Assembly: GCF_014138045.1 (NCBI RefSeq)
Contig: NZ_JACGXA010000001.1
Location: 2,589,001 to 2,653,000, forward strand
Length of the DNA stretch: 64,000 nt
Reading direction: 5' to 3'
Source of the DNA: Nocardioides ginsengisegetis
Lineage (GTDB): Bacteria; Actinomycetota; Actinomycetes; Propionibacteriales; Nocardioidaceae
Shown here piece after piece: positions 2,496-56,001 of this stretch. Numbering within the stretch: the stretch's first letter is position 1; each line of letters begins with the position of its first letter. A program made the translations under genes and the position numbers. Under the pieces are notes generated by a model. The model searched no databases. It saw nothing but the letters and a program-made list of their open reading frames with translations, and was not told where the DNA came from.

Positions 2496-3625
2496 CGACC
2501 CCGTCGGGCTGGGACGCGTGGCTGGCCGCCGAGGCGGCGGCGCGCGACGAAGCCGGGCTGACCCGGCGCCTGGTCCCGCGGAAGGCGGACGACCCGACCA
2601 TCGACCTGGCGGGCAACGACTACCTCGGCCTGTCCCGGCACCCCGACGTCGTGGCCGGGGCCGTCGCCGCGGCCCGTGCCTTCGGCGGCGGCGCGGGTGC
2701 GTCGCGGCTCGTCACCGGCACGCTGACGATCCACGCCGAACTCGAGCGCGCGCTGGCCGACTACACGGGTCAGCCGGAGGCGCTGGTGTTCTCCACCGGC
2801 TACCACGCCAACCTCTCGATCGTGACCGCGCTGGCCGACCGGACGGCGTACGTCGTCTCCGACGCGCACGTCCACGCCTCCCTCGTCGACGCCGTGCGCC
2901 TGTCGAGGGCCGCGCTCGAGATCGTGCCGCACAGCGACGTGACGGCGGTGCGCGAGGCGCTGGCTCGGGCCGACGGCCGCCCCACGCTGGTGCTGGCCGA
3001 GTCGGTCTACTCCGTGCTCGGCGACGAGGCCCCGCTCGTCGAGCTGGCCGCCGCTTGTGAGGAGTACGGCGCCCTCCTGGTCGTCGACGAGGCGCACGGA
3101 CTGGGCGTGCACGGCCCCGGCGTCGTGCACCGGCTCGGCCTGGCCGGTCTGCCGCACGTCGTCGTCACGGCCACCCTGTCCAAGTCGCTCGGCAGCCAGG
3201 GCGGGGCCGTGCTCGGCTCGCCCGCGCTGGTCGAGCACCTCGTCAACCGGGCGCGTCCGTTCATCTTCGACACCGGCCTGGCCCCCGCGGCCGCCGGCGC
3301 GGCCCTGGCCGCTCTCGAGCTGCTGCGCGGCGACCCGGCGCTCCCCGGCGTGGTCCGGCGGCGGGTCACCGACCTGGCCGCCGCGCTGGGCGTCGAGCCG
3401 CCGGCCGGCGCGGTGCTGTCGGTGCCGATGGCCTCGCCGCAGGTCGCCCTGGCCGCTCAGGGCGCCGTCCTCGAGCAGGGCGTCCGGGTCGGCTGCTTCC
3501 GGCCGCCGTCGGTCCCCGACGGCGTCTCCCGGCTGCGGATCACCTCCAGCGCCGGCCCGTCCGACGAGGACTGGGCGCGCGCCGTCGAGGTGCTCGTCGC
3601 CGTCGTGAAGGAGTTCAGGCCATGA
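2492..3625 (+). CDS. bioF: 8-amino-7-oxononanoate synthase
   Basis: PLP-dependent condensation of pimeloyl-thioester with alanine to give 7-keto-8-aminopelargonate. The 377-residue protein has the alpha-oxoamine synthase landmarks: [12 protein letters not shown] near the N-terminus, [10 protein letters not shown], the [14 protein letters not shown] block and the PLP lysine K231 in [13 protein letters not shown]. It starts with ATG overlapping the bioA stop and ends in an ATGA overlap with bioD, so three enzymes are translationally coupled. No bioC/bioH-type pimelate gene is visible in the window. Confidence 0.95.
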
Positions 3626-48593: not shown

Positions 48594-48979
48594 CGAGCGG
48601 GGACGAGCAGCTGCCGACGTGGTCGGTCACGATGGTCAGCCCCGAGCTCGAGCTGCGCGTCGGTGCGCCGCGCGAGGAGACACTCGGGGTGCTGGCCCGA
48701 CACCTCGACATCGCGGGGTTCAAGACGAAGGACGCCACCCCGACCGGCTTCCGCGCGGTGCACTTCGCCCGGGGCTGGATCCTGGTCGGCGAGACGTCCT
48801 ACCGGACCGAGCTGCTGGTCCGCGCCGAGGGTGACGCCGTGACCGTGGCCGTCGGCCGCAACGCGCGCAACGGCAAGCCCCGTCGGCTCGCCGCCCGAGG
48901 GTTGAACGCCGCGCTCGACGAGCTCAGGAGCTGTGGGGTCGGGGTGCACTGGACGCCGTGGGCTGAACAGTCCCGGTGA
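48590..48979 (+). CDS. Hypothetical protein
   Basis: 129 residues, GTG start overlapping the upstream stop (GTGA). Reads as a small alpha/beta protein (VTMVSPELELRVGAPREETL ... AVGRNARNGKPRR). No family recognised. Its last 56 bp overlap the convergent ECF S-component gene. Confidence 0.6.
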   Translation: MTSGDEQLPTWSVTMVSPELELRVGAPREETLGVLARHLDIAGFKTKDATPTGFRAVHFARGWILVGETSYRTELLVRAEGDAVTVAVGRNARNGKPRRLAARGLNAALDELRSCGVGVHWTPWAEQSR

Positions 48980-49763
48980 CCGTCGCCCGGCGGGAGGCCC
49001 GGCGCAGCGTCGACAGCACGGCCGGGCCCAGCACCGCGATCGCCACCGCGTTGGTGATCGCCCGACCGGTGTCCCAGCTGCCGGTCGACGTGAGCAGCGT
49101 GTAGACCGCGAAGCGGTGCAGGTTGTCCGCGACCGGTGCGCCGGCCACGAACGACAGCGAGCTCCCGTGGCCGGGCACCTCCACGCCGAGCAGGAACGGC
49201 CAGCCCGAGAGGTTCATCAGCAGGCCGAACACGTAGGCCGCGACGATTCCGTAGACCACCAGCATGGCGATCTCGGCCCGCCCGGTGACCCGCCGCGGGA
49301 GCAGTCCCGCGCCCATCCCCACCCAGGCGGACACCAGCATCTGGAAGGGCAACCAGGGGCCGACGCCGGCGGTCATCAGGGCCGACGCGAAGAGCGACGT
49401 ACAGCCCAGGACGAAGCCGAAGCCGGGGCCGAAGACGCGCCCGGCGAGGATCAGCAGGAAGAGGACGAGCTCGACACCGGCCGTGCCGGGCGAGATGCCG
49501 CGCAGGACGGCGTTGATCGCCGAGAGCACCCCCAGGATCGCCAGCACCCGCGGGTCCATGCCGCCCTCGCTGATCTCGGCGAGCACGACGGCGATCACGA
49601 CCGGCAGCAGTCCGAGGAAGAGGAACGGCGGGTCGACCCGCGGCTCGTCGCCGACCCGCACGAGCAGCGGCCAGCAGAGCATCATCAGCCCGGCCAGCGA
49701 GGCGACGCCGAGCACGAGGGCGGTGCGCGGCGCGATCGGGACCGCGGAGACGCGGGCGCTCAT
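48924..49763 (-). CDS. ECF transporter S component, probably for cobalamin
   Basis: 279 residues, six or so TM segments, with GMDPRVLAILGVLSAINAVLRG and FMLG-like helix GRVFGPGFGFVLGCTSLFASALMTAGVGPWLPFQML, typical of the larger ECF S components linked to cobalamin. The assignment to B12 rests on the riboswitch at the head of the operon. ATG overlaps the ATPase stop. Long hydrophilic C-terminus (about 25 residues). Confidence 0.8.
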   Translation of the reverse strand: MSARVSAVPIAPRTALVLGVASLAGLMMLCWPLLVRVGDEPRVDPPFLFLGLLPVVIAVVLAEISEGGMDPRVLAILGVLSAINAVLRGISPGTAGVELVLFLLILAGRVFGPGFGFVLGCTSLFASALMTAGVGPWLPFQMLVSAWVGMGAGLLPRRVTGRAEIAMLVVYGIVAAYVFGLLMNLSGWPFLLGVEVPGHGSSLSFVAGAPVADNLHRFAVYTLLTSTGSWDTGRAITNAVAIAVLGPAVLSTLRRASRRATVTGTVQPTASSAPRPHSS

Positions 49764-51346
49764 GCCGAGTCCAGCCGTGCGGCCACCTCGTCGACCCGCA
49801 GCCACGGCGCGCCGAGCACCTTGGTGACCTGGGGGGCGAAGGCGGGTGACTCGGCCACCACGCGGCGTACGGGCCCGGAGGAGACGACCTCGCCCTCGGC
49901 CAGCACCACCACGTCGTGGGCGGCCTGGGCCACGAACTCGACGTCGTGGGTGGCGACGAGGACGGCGTGCCCCTCCTCGGCCAGGGTGCGGAGGATGCCC
50001 GCGAGCTCGTGCTTGGCGGCGTAGTCCAGGCCGCGCGTCGGCTCGTCGAGGAGCAGCACGTCCGGCCGCGAGACGAGGACCAGGGAGAGCGCGAGGGCCA
50101 GCCGCTGGCCCTCCGAGAGGTCGCGCGGGTGGGTGTCGTCGGCGATGCCCGGCACGAGGCGCTCGAGGATCGCCCGGCAGGCGCCCGAGCCGCCGTCGGC
50201 GGCGGCGCACTCCTCGGCGACGGTCTCGAGGTAGAGCAGGTCCGCGGCGTTCTGCGGCACCAGGCCCACGAGGTTGCGGCGACCGGCAGCGTCGAGCGCC
50301 GCCGGGTCGTGGCTGCCGACGTGTACGTCGCCCGCCGCACGCCGGCCGCTGCCCTGCAGGGCCCACATCATCGAGGACTTGCCCGAGCCGTTGCGCCCCA
50401 TCAGGGCCGTGACCCGACGCGCTCCGAGGGCCAGGTCGACCTCGCGCAGCGCGACGGTCGGGCCGTGCACGACCGAGAGGCGTCGGGCCCGGAGGGCGAC
50501 GTCGTCGGATGGTGTCTCGTGGGACGCCACCGGGGCCGCGCCGAGGCGGTCGGCCAGACCGCGGGCCAGCCGGCGGGCGTCGCGCACGCTCAGCGGGAGG
50601 GGGTCCCAGCCGGCGGCGCGGCCGAGCTCGACGATCGGCGGGACCACCGGCGAGTCGGCCAGCAGGGTCGCCGGCTCGCCCACCCGCACGGCACCCCCGC
50701 CGGTCATCAGGCACATCCGGTCGGCGAACGGGACGACCCGCTCGAGCCGGTGCTCGGCCATCAGCACGCTGACGCCGAGGTCGTGCACGAGCCGGGTGAG
50801 GGTCGCGAGGACGTCCTCGGCGGCGGTCGGGTCGAGGGCGGAGGTGGGCTCGTCGAGCACCAGCAGCCGGGGGTGCATCGTGAGGACCGACCCGATCGCC
50901 ACGCGCTGCTGCTGACCACCCGAAAGGGTGCGCAGGTCCCGGTTGCGGAGCTCGGCGATGCCGAGCAGGTCGAGGGTCTCCTCGACCCGGCGGCGCATCG
51001 TGTCGGCGGGCAGGCCGAGCTGCTCCATCCCGTAGGCGAGCTCCTCCTCGACCGTGTCGGTCACGAAGCCCGCCGCGGGATCCTGGCCGACGTAGCCCAC
51101 GAGGTGGGCCCGGTCGCGCGGCGGGGTGCGCACGACGCTGGCGCCGTCGAGCAGCACGTCGCCGGAGAGGTGGCCGCCGCTGAACCGCGGCACCAGCCCG
51201 GTCACGACCCCCAGGAGCGTGGACTTGCCGACGCCGGTCGGCCCGGAGACGACGACGAGCTCGCCCTCCTCGATGGTCAGCGAGACCCGGTCGAGGACGG
51301 GAGGCCCCTCGGCGTAGCCGAACGTGATGTCGCGCAGCTCGATCAT
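49760..51346 (-). CDS. ECF transporter fused ATPase (A-A')
   Basis: 528 residues with two ABC domains. First: GPTGVGKST, LSGGQQQR, LLVLDEPTSALDP. Second: GRNGSGKSS, degenerate signature DLSEGQRLALAL, VLLLDEPTRGLD. Fused ECF ATPases energise vitamin import with EcfT. ATGA overlaps on both sides (EcfT, S component). Confidence 0.9.
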   Translation of the reverse strand: MIELRDITFGYAEGPPVLDRVSLTIEEGELVVVSGPTGVGKSTLLGVVTGLVPRFSGGHLSGDVLLDGASVVRTPPRDRAHLVGYVGQDPAAGFVTDTVEEELAYGMEQLGLPADTMRRRVEETLDLLGIAELRNRDLRTLSGGQQQRVAIGSVLTMHPRLLVLDEPTSALDPTAAEDVLATLTRLVHDLGVSVLMAEHRLERVVPFADRMCLMTGGGAVRVGEPATLLADSPVVPPIVELGRAAGWDPLPLSVRDARRLARGLADRLGAAPVASHETPSDDVALRARRLSVVHGPTVALREVDLALGARRVTALMGRNGSGKSSMMWALQGSGRRAAGDVHVGSHDPAALDAAGRRNLVGLVPQNAADLLYLETVAEECAAADGGSGACRAILERLVPGIADDTHPRDLSEGQRLALALSLVLVSRPDVLLLDEPTRGLDYAAKHELAGILRTLAEEGHAVLVATHDVEFVAQAAHDVVVLAEGEVVSSGPVRRVVAESPAFAPQVTKVLGAPWLRVDEVAARLDSA

Positions 51347-52464
51347 GCGGCGGCCTCCGCGTGGCCGCGGAGCTCGGCCACGGGGCGGTACGGCGCGGCG
51401 ACCGGCGGCGAGGCCAGCCCGCCGAGCAGGCCGATCGCGGCACCGAGCAGGGAGGCGCCGCCGACGCGCGGGACCGTGGCGAGGTCGGGGTAGGCCAGGG
51501 CGACCTGGTGGCCGCCGACCCACCACGCGAGGGCCGCCACCGCGACGCCGGACGCGACGACGACGAGCTCGGGCAGCCGCCAGTGGTCGGGCCGGTAGCG
51601 GGTGCGCTCCACCCGTCGCCCCGCGCTGAGCAGCCCGGCGGTCGCCGTCGCGGCCCCGAGCGCGAGCATCGGCAGCGCGAGCCAGCGGGGGGCGGTCTGG
51701 TCGAGGACGGCGTAGGTGCCCACGCAGATCCCGACCAGCCCGGTCAGCATCAGGGCGCCGGTGGTGCGGCGGGCGGTCCGGCCGAGGTTGCCGGCCCGGC
51801 CGTAGCCGCGCGCGTCCATCCCCGCCGCGAGGGCCAGCGACCGCTCCAGCGCGTCCTCGAGGACCGGCACCAGGAAGCGGCGCAGCCGCCCGATCCGGCC
51901 GGTCTCCCCCGCCCGCAGGCTCTGTGCGGCCCGGACCCGGCGCACGCTGTCGGCGAACTGCGGCAGCACCGTCACGGCCACCACCAGGGCGGTCCCGATC
52001 TCGTAGAGCGCCGGCGGCACCGAGCGCAGCAGCCGCTTGGGGTTCGCGAGCGCGTTGGCCGCGCCGATGCAGATCACGATCGTGGCGAGCCGCAGGCCGT
52101 CGTACAGGCCCGCGAGCAGCGCCTCGCGCGTGATCGGCCCCAGCAGGGTGATGCCGGCGACCCAGTGCGGCAGGGGCACGGCCGGGAGCGGGACCAGCAC
52201 GGTGCCGACGTCACCGGCCCCGAAGACCACCCGGAACGCCAGCCGGACCGCGACGATCACGACCCCGAGCCAGACGTAGATCCGGAACGACGCAGCCCAC
52301 GGCTGGTCGGAACGTCGCGCCATCACGACCACGCTCGCCACCGCCACGAGCAGGAGCAGCACGAGCGGGTTGGTCGTCAGCGACGCCGCCGCGGCAAGCC
52401 CGATCGCCCACACCCACCAGGCCACGGGGTGCAGGTCGCGCGGGAGCCGCGTCGGGGGCCGCAT
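51343..52464 (-). CDS. ECF transporter T component
   Basis: 373 residues, several TM helices, with the ATPase-coupling Ala-Arg-Gly motif in GMDARGYGR (the second xRG repeat is in RAAQSLRAGE). ATG 52464; a GTG at 52473 is in frame. The third transport component between the exported protein gene and the ATPase. Confidence 0.87.
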   Translation of the reverse strand: MRPPTRLPRDLHPVAWWVWAIGLAAAASLTTNPLVLLLLVAVASVVVMARRSDQPWAASFRIYVWLGVVIVAVRLAFRVVFGAGDVGTVLVPLPAVPLPHWVAGITLLGPITREALLAGLYDGLRLATIVICIGAANALANPKRLLRSVPPALYEIGTALVVAVTVLPQFADSVRRVRAAQSLRAGETGRIGRLRRFLVPVLEDALERSLALAAGMDARGYGRAGNLGRTARRTTGALMLTGLVGICVGTYAVLDQTAPRWLALPMLALGAATATAGLLSAGRRVERTRYRPDHWRLPELVVVASGVAVAALAWWVGGHQVALAYPDLATVPRVGGASLLGAAIGLLGGLASPPVAAPYRPVAELRGHAEAAA

Positions 52465-52477
52465 CGTGGGCACGGGC

Positions 52478-53374
52478 TCAGCCGGCCCTGCGGCGGCGCA
52501 CGAGCGCGGTGGCACCGGCCGCCGCGAAGAGCACCGCGATGGCCGCCGGCGCCACCCAGGCGGGGAGGCCGCCGTCGTCCGGGGTCGGCGCCTCAGCAGC
52601 CGGTACGTCGCCCGCCGCCGGGGAGGCCGATCCGGACGGGTCGGCCGTGGCCGAGCTGCTCGCGCCGGCCGAGGGCGAGGCGTGGTGGCGCTTCTTCTGC
52701 CCGTGCTTGCCCCCGTGCTTGCCATCGGGCTTGGAGCCGGCCGAGGAGGCGGACACAGAGGGAGCGGTCGCGCCCGACGCCGGGGCAGTCGTCCCTCCGC
52801 CGGTGCCCGGCTGCTGGCTCGGCGCGTGCGTCGGCTGCTGGGTCGGCTGCTGCGTCGGCTGGTGGCTCGGTGAGGGCGACGGGGTCGGCGACGCGGTCTT
52901 GTGGGCCGTGGGGGCCGCGCCCGGCGGCGACTTGGTGCTGCTGCCGTTCCACGAGAGGGCGACGTACCCGCCCTCGGGGACGGTCAGCGAGTCGACGCCC
53001 TGGCTGGCGTAGGTCCACGTCCCGGACGTGCCGTCGGACCACCACAGGCCCCAGTAGGCGTCGGCAGGCGGGGTGTTGACGCAGGACTCCTGGTCCGAGG
53101 ACGGCGCGTTGTTCACCCGACACACGAAGCCGGGCTGGCGCTGCACCCGGGTCAGGGCGAAGCCGGAGTCCTCGAACTGGGTCGCCGCGTCGTCCCCGGC
53201 ACCACCGGCGTCGCAGACCTGCTGCACACCGCCGCCGAGCTCGTGGAAGTCCACGACGACCGTGACCCCGCTCGCGGTCGAGCAGGCGGCCGCCTGGGTC
53301 GGCGCCGCAGGGATCACACCCGTCGCCGCGGTCACGAGGACCGCGGCGACGAGCGACGCGAGCGTCAGCCGCAC
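52478..53374 (-). CDS. SCO2322-family exported, membrane-anchored protein (DUF4430-like beta domain)
   Basis: 298 residues. Signal peptide to about 28, a beta domain (ACSTASGVTVVVDFHELGGG ... YWGLWWSDGTSGTWTY ... GGYVALSW) that resembles the DUF4430/transcobalamin beta-domain pattern, a Pro/Thr/Gln/Ser linker (QPTQQPTQQP), a basic region, then one TM helix and RRRR tail. Probably faces the outside. GTG overlaps the preceding stop by 10 bp. Confidence 0.7.
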   Translation of the reverse strand: MRLTLASLVAAVLVTAATGVIPAAPTQAAACSTASGVTVVVDFHELGGGVQQVCDAGGAGDDAATQFEDSGFALTRVQRQPGFVCRVNNAPSSDQESCVNTPPADAYWGLWWSDGTSGTWTYASQGVDSLTVPEGGYVALSWNGSSTKSPPGAAPTAHKTASPTPSPSPSHQPTQQPTQQPTHAPSQQPGTGGGTTAPASGATAPSVSASSAGSKPDGKHGGKHGQKKRHHASPSAGASSSATADPSGSASPAAGDVPAAEAPTPDDGGLPAWVAPAAIAVLFAAAGATALVRRRRAG

Positions 53375-54441
53375 GTCAGGTAGCCCAGGCCCGGCGCCGC
53401 CTGCGAGGTGGCGCGCCGCCACTGGTCCTGGGTCTCGGTCGTGATGCCGTCCTGCGCGGCGGCGTCGTACGCCGTCCGGTCGTAGGCGATCGCACCGCGC
53501 TGGCCGTGGAGCGGCTTGCCGCTCGCGACGTCACCGACTTGGAGCTTCTTCACCCAGGCCGCCGCCTTCGAGGCCGCACCGCACGCGCCGGAGCCGCCGA
53601 GGGCCCAGGCCGCGAGGCCGGTGCTGTTGGCGTTGGACGCCTCGGTGGCAGGGCCGCCGCCGAAGCTGCCGTTGTCCTTCTGGTGGTGCTTGAGCCACGC
53701 AACGGCGTCCTTGATCGCGGCCTTCACCGCGGCGGACTTGTGCGGGACCGGCCGCAGGTTGATCACCGCGAGAGCGGTGACGTCGGTGTCGGGTGCACTG
53801 GTCGTGGCCCGCTTCCCGGCGTCGCACGACTGGTCGGCCTTCGCCTTGCCCGCGAAGTTGAGGCGGAACCAGCCGCCCGCGCACTGCTGCTTCAACAGGA
53901 AGCGGATCGCCTCGTCGGCCTTCCCCGAGCCGGCCACGGCCAGCCCGCGGGCCGCGAACGCCTGACCGATCGTGTTGGCGTAGTCGGTCGCGGACCTGTC
54001 CTGGATCCGGCCGACCGTCGGGGCGTCGGTGCTGACGCGCTTGCCGAGCCGCTGGACGAGGTCCACGCCGCCGAACGAGCGCGGATCGCCGCCGGTGGCC
54101 TCGGCCAGGACGACCGCCTTGGCCACGGAGCCGGCGTAGACGTCGTCGGAGCCGAAGTCGACGCCGGTCGTCCAGCTGTCGACGTGGGTGGCCAGCGACT
54201 TGCGGATGTCGGCGACGTGGGAGGCCTGGCCCCCGGTCGCGAGCAGCGCGAAGGCGACGTCGGCGGTGAGGCCGTAGTCGTCGAAGGAGTACTGGTCGTT
54301 GTGGACCAGGCCGTCGGTCAGCTGGTGGGTGAGCCAGGTGCCGGCCCGGTCGTCGGGGGCCGCCTGGGCGGCTCCGGGGACGAGCGTGAGGAGCAGGGCG
54401 GAGACGGCGACGAGCGCCGAGCTCCTGGAGAGGCGTGACAT
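53365..54441 (-). CDS. Exported prenyltransferase/squalene-oxidase-repeat protein (transcobalamin alpha-domain-like)
   Basis: 358 residues with a signal peptide (to about 27, AQAAP). The mature part has alpha/alpha-barrel repeats: YGLTADVAFALLATG, GWFRLNF, LKHHQKDNGSFGGG, STGLAAWALGG. This fold is shared with transcobalamin and intrinsic factor. First gene after the B12 riboswitch, so it may capture cobalamin for the ECF importer (inference). Good GGAAGGA site. Confidence 0.75.
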   Translation of the reverse strand: MSRLSRSSALVAVSALLLTLVPGAAQAAPDDRAGTWLTHQLTDGLVHNDQYSFDDYGLTADVAFALLATGGQASHVADIRKSLATHVDSWTTGVDFGSDDVYAGSVAKAVVLAEATGGDPRSFGGVDLVQRLGKRVSTDAPTVGRIQDRSATDYANTIGQAFAARGLAVAGSGKADEAIRFLLKQQCAGGWFRLNFAGKAKADQSCDAGKRATTSAPDTDVTALAVINLRPVPHKSAAVKAAIKDAVAWLKHHQKDNGSFGGGPATEASNANSTGLAAWALGGSGACGAASKAAAWVKKLQVGDVASGKPLHGQRGAIAYDRTAYDAAAQDGITTETQDQWRRATSQAAPGLGYLTCG

Positions 54442-54499
54442 GAGGGTTCCTTCCCGCTGCACAACGGGAGGCCCGGGGCCACCCGCTGGTTTCCACGAC

Positions 54500-54630
54500 A
54501 GCGTGTGATCAGGACGCGTCGCGGCAGGTGGTCCGGCTCGCTCCCCGAGGCGAACCTCGGCGAGCACACGGTTGCGGGTCAGCGCCGGATTCGGACCGGC
54601 TTCCCCCACTGCGGGCGTGATGAGTTGTGT
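54500..54630 (-). ncRNA. Cobalamin (B12) riboswitch
   Basis: Read on the minus strand: GTGGGGGAAG, then CCGGTCCGAATCCGG (54585-54599), CTGACCCGCAACC (54570-54582) and the B12 box AGCCGGACCACCTGCC (54523-54538). These are the conserved core elements in the right order. A hairpin CCCG...CGGG lies just before the ribosome site of the next gene (about 54451-54466), a possible expression platform. Edges are approximate. Confidence 0.92.
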
Positions 54631-54636
54631 GAGCGC

Positions 54637-54642
54637 AGCATA
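54637..54642 (-). promoter_or_regulatory. -10 box of the riboswitch operon
   Basis: TATGCT on the minus strand, about 7 bases before the probable RNA start; no clear -35. Confidence 0.5.
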
Positions 54643-54646
54643 CCGG

Positions 54647-54676
54647 CGGACCGACCCCCGTGAGGGGGCCGGTCCG
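54647..54676 (-). terminator. Terminator after the phospholipase-D-like gene
   Basis: Stem CGGACCG/CGGTCCG plus CCCCC/GGGGG closed by a GTGA tetraloop with one mismatch, 18 bases past the gene's stop and 5 bases before the riboswitch -10 box. Confidence 0.75.
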
Positions 54677-54693: not shown

Positions 54694-56001
54694 TCAGTCC
54701 GCCTCGACGAGGGCGTACGGATCAACCGAGGTGGTGCTCCAGCGGCCCGGCAGGTTGGTGCCGGTGCCGGCGGGGTCCTTGCCGTTGGGGTACTTCTTCG
54801 GCGGGTTGTGGAACAGGTGGTTGATCCACCCGTTGTAGCGGTTCAGCGTGACCGGGCGGCTCAGCCGGAGCACGGCCTCGTCGCTGGCCAGCACCGCCGG
54901 GGACCAGTTGGCCGACCCGTTGAGCGTGATGGTCGCCGCGTGGTCCTTGCGGTAGTGCCCCTGGATCGTCATGACCTTCATGTGGAGGTACTTGTCGTAG
55001 ACGCCGTCGGCGTTGAAGTCCTGCACGATCTGGCGCATCGGGACGGGGTGATCTCCCCCGCGGCGCAGGATGCGCAGCACCTCGTTGCCCATGACGGCGT
55101 ACACGATCCGGATGCGGCAGCCGTTGTTCTGCATGTGCCGGATCCGCCAGGCGATCCGCTTGCCGCGGTCGCCGAACCACGAGGTCTGGGCGATCCGCAG
55201 GCTCGTGTGGCCGTCCCCGGTGTTGCGGGCGCCGGAGCAGGTGACCCGGTCCAGCTCCCGCATGACGGGGTCCTTGGTGGTGTGCGCCCCGGTGTAGGGG
55301 AAGGCCATCGTGGTCAGGGACCGGTAGCGGTGCACGCGGTAGCCCTGCGCGACCGGCTGGTCCCTGAACATCTGCGAGAAGACCTTGCGGAACTCCTTGA
55401 AGACCTTCGGGCGGCCCACCACGGTGTAGAGGTCGTTCCACTGGCCGCTGACCGCGAGGTCGGTGGCGTTGAAGGAGCCGTTCATGACGACGTCGTGGGC
55501 GCGACCGACGTGGTCGAAGAGGAAGAACTTCGAGTGCGCGATACCGCGCGTGCCGCGGCACGAGCTGCGGCACTTCTCGAGGTGGCTGCGCATCGCCGGG
55601 CGGCGGGTTCGGTTGCCGTTGTTCTTCAGCGCCCGCTGCAGCCGGTTGACGCCCTCGTTGGGGTTGTCGGGGTTGGCGTTGCCGCGGTCCATGATCACGC
55701 GGACCGACACGTGCCGCTTGTGGGCGGCGATCAGCGCGTTGACGATCGCGTCGCTGCGGATGTTCCAGCTGGCGATCCGGATGTGCGACATCCGCGGCGT
55801 GCTGTCGATGGCACGGATGACGTGCCGGATGATCACGCGGCGCTCGGTCCGGTCACCGAGGGGGTTGTTGGTCTTCACCCCCGCGGGCGGGGTGTAGTGC
55901 CCCACGGCGGAGGCCGGCGCGGCGAACGCGCCGGCTCCGATCGCCAGCGTGGCGACCAGGGCGACGAACAGGGAAGGAAGTCGTGCTGAGCGGGTGGACA
56001 T
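54694..56001 (-). CDS. Exported phospholipase-D-like protein
   Basis: 435 residues: signal peptide (cleavage near ASA, residue 32), then two PLD half-domains. First HKD is intact, HSKFFLFD (H156, K158, D163) with NGSFNATD. Second has HMKVMTIQ (H340, K342) with Gln at 347 in place of Asp, followed by NGSANWS. Such exported proteins hydrolyse phosphodiesters. TAAAGT may be its -10 box upstream. Confidence 0.85.
   Translation of the reverse strand: MSTRSARLPSLFVALVATLAIGAGAFAAPASAVGHYTPPAGVKTNNPLGDRTERRVIIRHVIRAIDSTPRMSHIRIASWNIRSDAIVNALIAAHKRHVSVRVIMDRGNANPDNPNEGVNRLQRALKNNGNRTRRPAMRSHLEKCRSSCRGTRGIAHSKFFLFDHVGRAHDVVMNGSFNATDLAVSGQWNDLYTVVGRPKVFKEFRKVFSQMFRDQPVAQGYRVHRYRSLTTMAFPYTGAHTTKDPVMRELDRVTCSGARNTGDGHTSLRIAQTSWFGDRGKRIAWRIRHMQNNGCRIRIVYAVMGNEVLRILRRGGDHPVPMRQIVQDFNADGVYDKYLHMKVMTIQGHYRKDHAATITLNGSANWSPAVLASDEAVLRLSRPVTLNRYNGWINHLFHNPPKKYPNGKDPAGTGTNLPGRWSTTSVDPYALVEAD

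Follow-up and report, generated by a model that had tools for sequence, protein, structure and literature searches.

A riboswitch-led operon of Nocardioides ginsengisegetis that probably encodes a two-part, transcobalamin-like cobalamin trap and an ECF importer

The system treated here is a five-gene operon in a stretch of 64,000 nucleotides ("the window"; contig C1, positions 2589001-2653000) of the 4.46 Mb genome of Nocardioides ginsengisegetis. Among its closest described counterparts are energy-coupling factor (ECF) importers. According to the accessible part of the report on ECF-CbrT of Lactobacillus, substrate binding in ECF importers is the task of the S component (PMC5997447). ECF-CbrT resembles the importer of the window in having EcfT, two ATPase domains, an S component and presumably B12 as cargo, whereas in the window the ATPases are fused, the whole set forms one riboswitch-led operon, and two further proteins, designated alpha and beta, are encoded; an extracytoplasmic module of this kind is not mentioned in the same accessible part (PMC5997447). 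For acI freshwater actinobacteria, an ECF module located behind cobalamin riboswitches, as in the window, was proposed to be a cobalamin transporter (PMC5301498). The available excerpts of that report do not mention an alpha or beta protein, and the acI modules are set apart by this description, not by sequence. The domain DUF4430, to which the beta protein had been likened, has been described as the C-terminal domain of animal transcobalamins (PMC4350170); in Lacticaseibacillus, a DUF4430 gene lies beside rtpR (PMC9963975). A full-text literature search revealed no description of a transcobalamin-like pair with an ECF importer, which is weak evidence of absence, as subscription journals and preprints lay largely outside its scope. 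The analysis presented here suggests that the operon probably serves B12-repressed capture and import of cobalamin, by a two-part transcobalamin-like trap feeding an ECF importer. The elements of the locus are, in the order of transcription:

54506-54663, minus strand: aptamer of a cobalamin riboswitch (RF00174), 65 bases ahead of the start codon of alpha
54441-53365, minus strand: alpha protein gene (P0001, 358 aa); exported, alpha/alpha barrel, without C-terminal anchor
53374-52478, minus strand: beta protein gene (P0002, 298 aa); exported and membrane-anchored
52919-53296, minus strand: beta domain (residues 27-152), sharing the fold of the beta domain of transcobalamin
52574-52924, minus strand: low-complexity linker from beta domain to anchor, rich in Ala, Pro, Ser, Gly and Thr
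52496-52573, minus strand: C-terminal hydrophobic anchor of beta (residues 268-293)
52473-51343, minus strand: EcfT gene, transmembrane coupling subunit; CbiQ PF02361, 44.4 bits (cut-off 25)
51346-49760, minus strand: fused EcfA-A' gene (528 aa), two ATP-binding cassette (ABC) domains
49763-48924, minus strand: ECF S component gene (279 aa)

Thus, the riboswitch is followed on the minus strand by alpha, beta, EcfT, EcfA and S. According to the coordinates, alpha and beta overlap by 10 bases, beta and EcfT are 4 bases apart, and the junctions EcfT/EcfA and EcfA/S are overlaps of 4 bases each. The original prediction had placed five overlapping or tightly spaced genes here, all of which were found at their expected positions, and its assignment of EcfT, a fused EcfA-A' and an S component was confirmed by Pfam matches over the cut-off. 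In EcfA, two ABC_tran (PF00005) stretches were detected (E 4.5e-49), while the S component matched PF12822 (38.2 bits, cut-off 30.7) and PF07155 (27.3 bits, cut-off 26.7). The best NCBIfam model for EcfA was ECF_ATPase_2 with 269 bits (cut-off 330); the S component matched the NCBIfam model folT, also sub-threshold. One operon hence contains EcfT, two ATPase domains and an S component, all exceeding Pfam cut-offs, as expected of an ECF transporter.

Both alpha and beta possess an N-terminus that, by eye, looks like an ordinary signal peptide. In alpha, the stretch at residues 4-28 is the only hydrophobic one, and this protein would be released outside the cell. Beta contains hydrophobic stretches at residues 1-26 and 268-293, the second followed by RRRR, and would be membrane-tethered. 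Together with the linker, these termini bear out the predicted export and membrane anchoring of the second protein; likewise, the view of the first as an exported alpha/alpha-barrel-type protein agrees with its N-terminal stretch and with a confident barrel model (predicted local distance difference test score, pLDDT, 97.5; predicted template modelling score, pTM, 0.94). As a general fold, this barrel corresponds to what a transcobalamin-type protein requires. The fold search identified in beta the beta-domain fold of transcobalamin, intrinsic factor and haptocorrin, which, judged from the predicted model, is specific for B12 carriers. The likeness to transcobalamin domains, proposed beforehand as a test of the idea, was therefore found for both proteins, specific for beta and non-specific for alpha.

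Sequence searches contributed less. Pfam and NCBIfam gave no match to the window beta, and a search of the PDB sequences yielded nothing for P0002 or for the beta profile. For alpha, Pfam returned alpha/alpha-toroid matches that were all sub-threshold, and the best named NCBIfam family was the SCO2321 family membrane protein NF053823 (72.7 bits, far under its cut-off of 300), whose entry states no function. With P0001, the PDB sequence search gave a single chance-level match (4j9w, E 0.39); the alpha profile matched squalene-hopene cyclases, complement C4 and other PDB proteins, transcobalamin not being among them. A second structure aligner placed no transcobalamin among the 50 matches listed for alpha, which excludes nothing. 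PF01122 ("Eukaryotic cobalamin-binding protein") did not match the window alpha, but weak matches were obtained with seven of 90 alpha sequences (best E 0.034). A search of ten chosen genomes with this model revealed two sub-threshold matches, one within the alpha gene of G095, the other in G285, where its contig gave no match to alpha. A role of alpha as terpene cyclase was considered and given low weight: class II terpene cyclases carry a DxDD motif, which is DVDD in squalene-hopene cyclase vs DTDV at this position of the window alpha and is thus not intact.

That alpha and beta act together is indicated most strongly by their repeated fusion in nature. At one locus (L102, Jiangella alba in the database), a single riboswitch-led gene encodes a beta domain, an immunoglobulin (Ig)-like domain, an alpha domain, a second alpha domain and a C-terminal hydrophobic stretch. 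A search with residues 30-720 of this protein gave 167 proteins, many of which matched in the Ig domain alone. Among the 120 matches listed, 31 contained an alpha domain and 23 of these, the query included, also a beta domain, a ratio that is not a frequency because a fusion had served as the query and protein length was limited. In all 23 fusions, beta precedes alpha. The idea of two transcobalamin halves split over two genes is supported by the folds, to which the fusions add further evidence. The best fused relative, P0252, matched PF01122 in its second alpha domain with 19.6 bits (E 4.8e-4, cut-off 25). Since P0252 scores better with different alpha/alpha families (SQHop_cyclase_C, E 9.3e-9), the PF01122 matches are regarded as leads, not as membership. 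At their C-terminal ends, P0252, P0262 and P0268 carry LAxTG, a hydrophobic stretch and arginines, an arrangement that resembles a sortase signal. Ten of the 23 fusions (P0249, P0252, P0259, P0262, P0268, P0271, P0302, P0311, P0348 and P0349) are assigned PF28005 in the database, a family that may correspond to either of the two domains.

The gene set is shared by related bacteria in number. A scan of species genomes kept 79 alpha loci, which were not dereplicated by genome (one strain contributed two contigs, L047 and L048, with identical coordinates); from the non-redundant rows, 89 of 94 alpha and 69 of 70 beta sequences entered the alignments (A4, A3). Gene orders were counted on open frames matched by profiles, not on gene calls. 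Beta directly followed alpha in 66 of the 70 loci with more than 1.5 kb downstream, and beta, EcfT, EcfA and S were all present downstream of alpha in 60 of the 64 loci with more than 5.5 kb, the 15 loci with at most 5.5 kb after alpha being omitted. The four exceptions were L037, L040 and L082, which lacked beta, and L085, in which the EcfT, EcfA and S genes lie ahead of alpha-beta. Among 296 sampled genomes from the class (thresholds alpha E 1e-5, beta E 1e-3), alpha was detected in 93 and beta in 115, both in 78 and neither in 166. Of the 78 genomes with both, 76 had them on the same strand and no more than 3.5 kb apart (Fisher p 1e-27, ignoring relatedness), and the other two (G008, G130) had them on different contigs. 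Three 1.2 Mb genomes of one family (G125, G155, G227) revealed a beta but no alpha match at these thresholds; alpha may have diverged there.

All five modules were present in 14 of 16 longer stretches examined, though in varying order: beta-EcfT-EcfA-S-alpha was seen in L120 and L121 and a divergent alpha-beta pair in L128. The beta match was weak in L131, L133 and L135 (22-31 bits), and L124 and L125, which had been chosen for PF14478 matches, contained none of the five modules. Extra copies occur as tandem alpha genes, two alpha-beta pairs, alpha at both ends, an extra beta after S or a divergent pair (L095, L094, L104, L122, L127, L128).

Association with cobalamin riboswitches was assessed at a relaxed threshold for 40 loci, comprising the window, 29 class loci (best matches, one per genome), five more distant loci and five gene-order exceptions. 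In 37 of them, alpha, or a fusion gene that includes it, was preceded by a cobalamin riboswitch, a count that applies to loci picked by score or by hand, not at random, and stands without matched alpha-less control loci. A gene pair mostly without B12 riboswitches in other genomes had been named in advance as the result that would speak against a link, and the opposite was observed. Among the class loci, the riboswitch preceded alpha on the same strand in 27 of 29, while in the 28th (L102) it preceded the fused gene. It was found in four of the five distant loci, that of L135 being AdoCbl-II (42.2 bits) and that of L130 lying some 650 bases ahead of the first alpha residue in the alignment, and upstream of alpha in four of the five gene-order exceptions. 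The scores ranged from 21.5 to 44.1 bits, with 17 of the 37 over the cut-off; the matches of L088 (E 0.25) and L093 (E 0.2) mean little alone.

In the window, the RF00174 match spans the full model (1-189) with 29.9 bits and an E-value of 5.7e-6 in the 381 bases searched; genome-wide, the same match had an E-value of 1.6e-5 and ranked fifth of six in the host genome. As the Rfam gathering score is 31.5 bits, a default scan of the window does not reveal this riboswitch. The copy is still read as a cobalamin riboswitch, since 17 of the 37 upstream matches counted at alpha loci pass their cut-off. The predicted "clear" cobalamin riboswitch therefore holds as to its position and its conserved place in relatives, whereas "clear" was slightly too strong for a sub-cut-off score. 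That it is a false match was considered and given low weight. The sequence between riboswitch and start codon folded no better than its shuffles (z -0.56).

Other arrangements of riboswitches were also encountered. In L097, two cobalamin riboswitches stand back to back on opposite strands (2764-2879, minus; 3093-3317, plus); one of 38.6 bits leads alpha, one of 85 bits points away from it. A second cobalamin riboswitch past the beta gene is present in L105 (1-99, minus), L106 (3863-3998, plus) and L107 (1-125, minus), so that alpha-beta and the downstream genes may be separate units there.

The folds of both proteins, the hydrophobic stretches for export and anchoring, the conservation of the gene set, its association with riboswitches and the domain fusions are computed results; we infer binding of alpha to beta, cobalamin as the ligand, its hand-over to S and its transport. 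At low intracellular cobalamin, the condition under which such riboswitches are known to permit expression, the five coupled genes would be switched on. The alpha barrel would be secreted and the beta domain hung from the membrane by its flexible linker. Cobalamin could then be clamped between barrel and beta domain, as it is in transcobalamin and intrinsic factor, and would thereby be concentrated at the membrane. The loaded pair may pass it to the S component, from which EcfT and the fused EcfA-A' ATPase would drive it into the cytoplasm.

Several observations weigh against this scheme. Three of the 40 loci lack an upstream riboswitch (L131, L082 and L095, in which the match lies between tandem alpha genes), and three Marmoricola loci (L029, L037, L040) have a riboswitch-led alpha with no beta or ECF genes found nearby. 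In the class sample, beta went unmatched in 15 of the 93 genomes with alpha, and alpha in 37 of the 115 with beta. The Foldseek E-values for beta are modest, none being below 1e-3, at identities of 12-18%, and the structures nearest to alpha are terpene cyclases, not transcobalamin. With B12 biosynthesis genes of its own, the host could do without import. Furthermore, DUF4430 (PF14478) matched none of the 70 beta sequences, that of the window included. The prediction of a DUF4430-like domain is thus supported by fold but not by sequence; this also separates the window protein and its 70-member alignment from bacterial proteins of the DUF4430 type, of which 3u7z (Ruminococcus gnavus RUMGNA_00854) is an example. 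PF14478 had no match anywhere in the host genome and was present in four of the 296 class genomes. In two of them (G089, 36.4 bits; G234, 33 bits; cut-off 23.8), it lies 1.1 and 1.0 kb, respectively, after the alpha match on the same strand; as the alpha gene sits after the S gene there, the DUF4430 gene is an extra one beside the operon's own beta.

It is conceivable, but unlikely, that a system of the same type imports cobinamide, another cobamide or a precursor, which is completed by the cell. The host's cobU, cbiB, cbiJ and cobN could allow such completion, and the general ECF Pfam families and the folT match of the S component are silent on specificity. However, transcobalamin-type folds indicate a whole corrinoid, not a small precursor or cobalt, while the riboswitch family is compatible with either cargo and does not decide. 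Similarly unlikely is an importer that takes up cobalamin alone, with alpha and beta playing another role, for instance enzymatic or structural at the cell surface. In ECF-CbrT, the S component itself binds the B12 that is imported (PMC5997447), the fold of alpha is closest to terpene cyclases and sugar enzymes, and some alpha genes have no ECF genes nearby; yet the beta fold is specific for B12 carriers, the two domains are fused in 23 proteins, and the altered DxDD position argues against a cyclase. A merely coincidental likeness to transcobalamin, with a common beta-grasp-like domain and a common toroid side by side, is considered very improbable.

Apart from the window proteins themselves, the nearest database matches to alpha (94%) and beta (81%) come from Nocardioides sp. 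LS1. Around the other riboswitches of the host genome, cobN, cbiJ, cbiB, cobU, a CobB/CobQ-type amidotransferase domain and ribonucleotide reductase were found. Judged from these genes, the host probably makes corrinoids, and the importer would therefore serve salvage. The large-chain gene of ribonucleotide reductase (L136, 5223-7730, minus) directly follows the strongest cobalamin riboswitch (87.3 bits). On the same strand as the operon, the frame preceding its riboswitch (window 54694-56001, minus) resembles by eye a secreted phospholipase D-type protein with HxK motifs.

Should capture and import of cobalamin by this operon prove true, a transcobalamin-like trap would add an extramembrane capture step to ECF import, and ECF importers equipped with a separate binding module outside the cytoplasm would be common across one large bacterial class. 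A function would also be assigned to the families of alpha and beta, which were matched in 93 and 115 of the 296 class genomes, respectively. The roots of the animal B12 carriers would be placed in bacterial surface capture systems, and this link would become directly testable. Neither window protein reaches the cut-off for transcobalamin-type Pfam families such as PF01122. Transcobalamin, haptocorrin and intrinsic factor are single chains with alpha ahead of beta, whereas the window has two genes and a membrane anchor on beta, and the bacterial fusions reverse the domain order of transcobalamin. The chances are about even that the transcobalamin family has a bacterial counterpart, and perhaps its ancestor, in this system, in which a secreted barrel and a tethered beta domain from separate genes clamp cobalamin and deliver it to the S component of an ECF importer.

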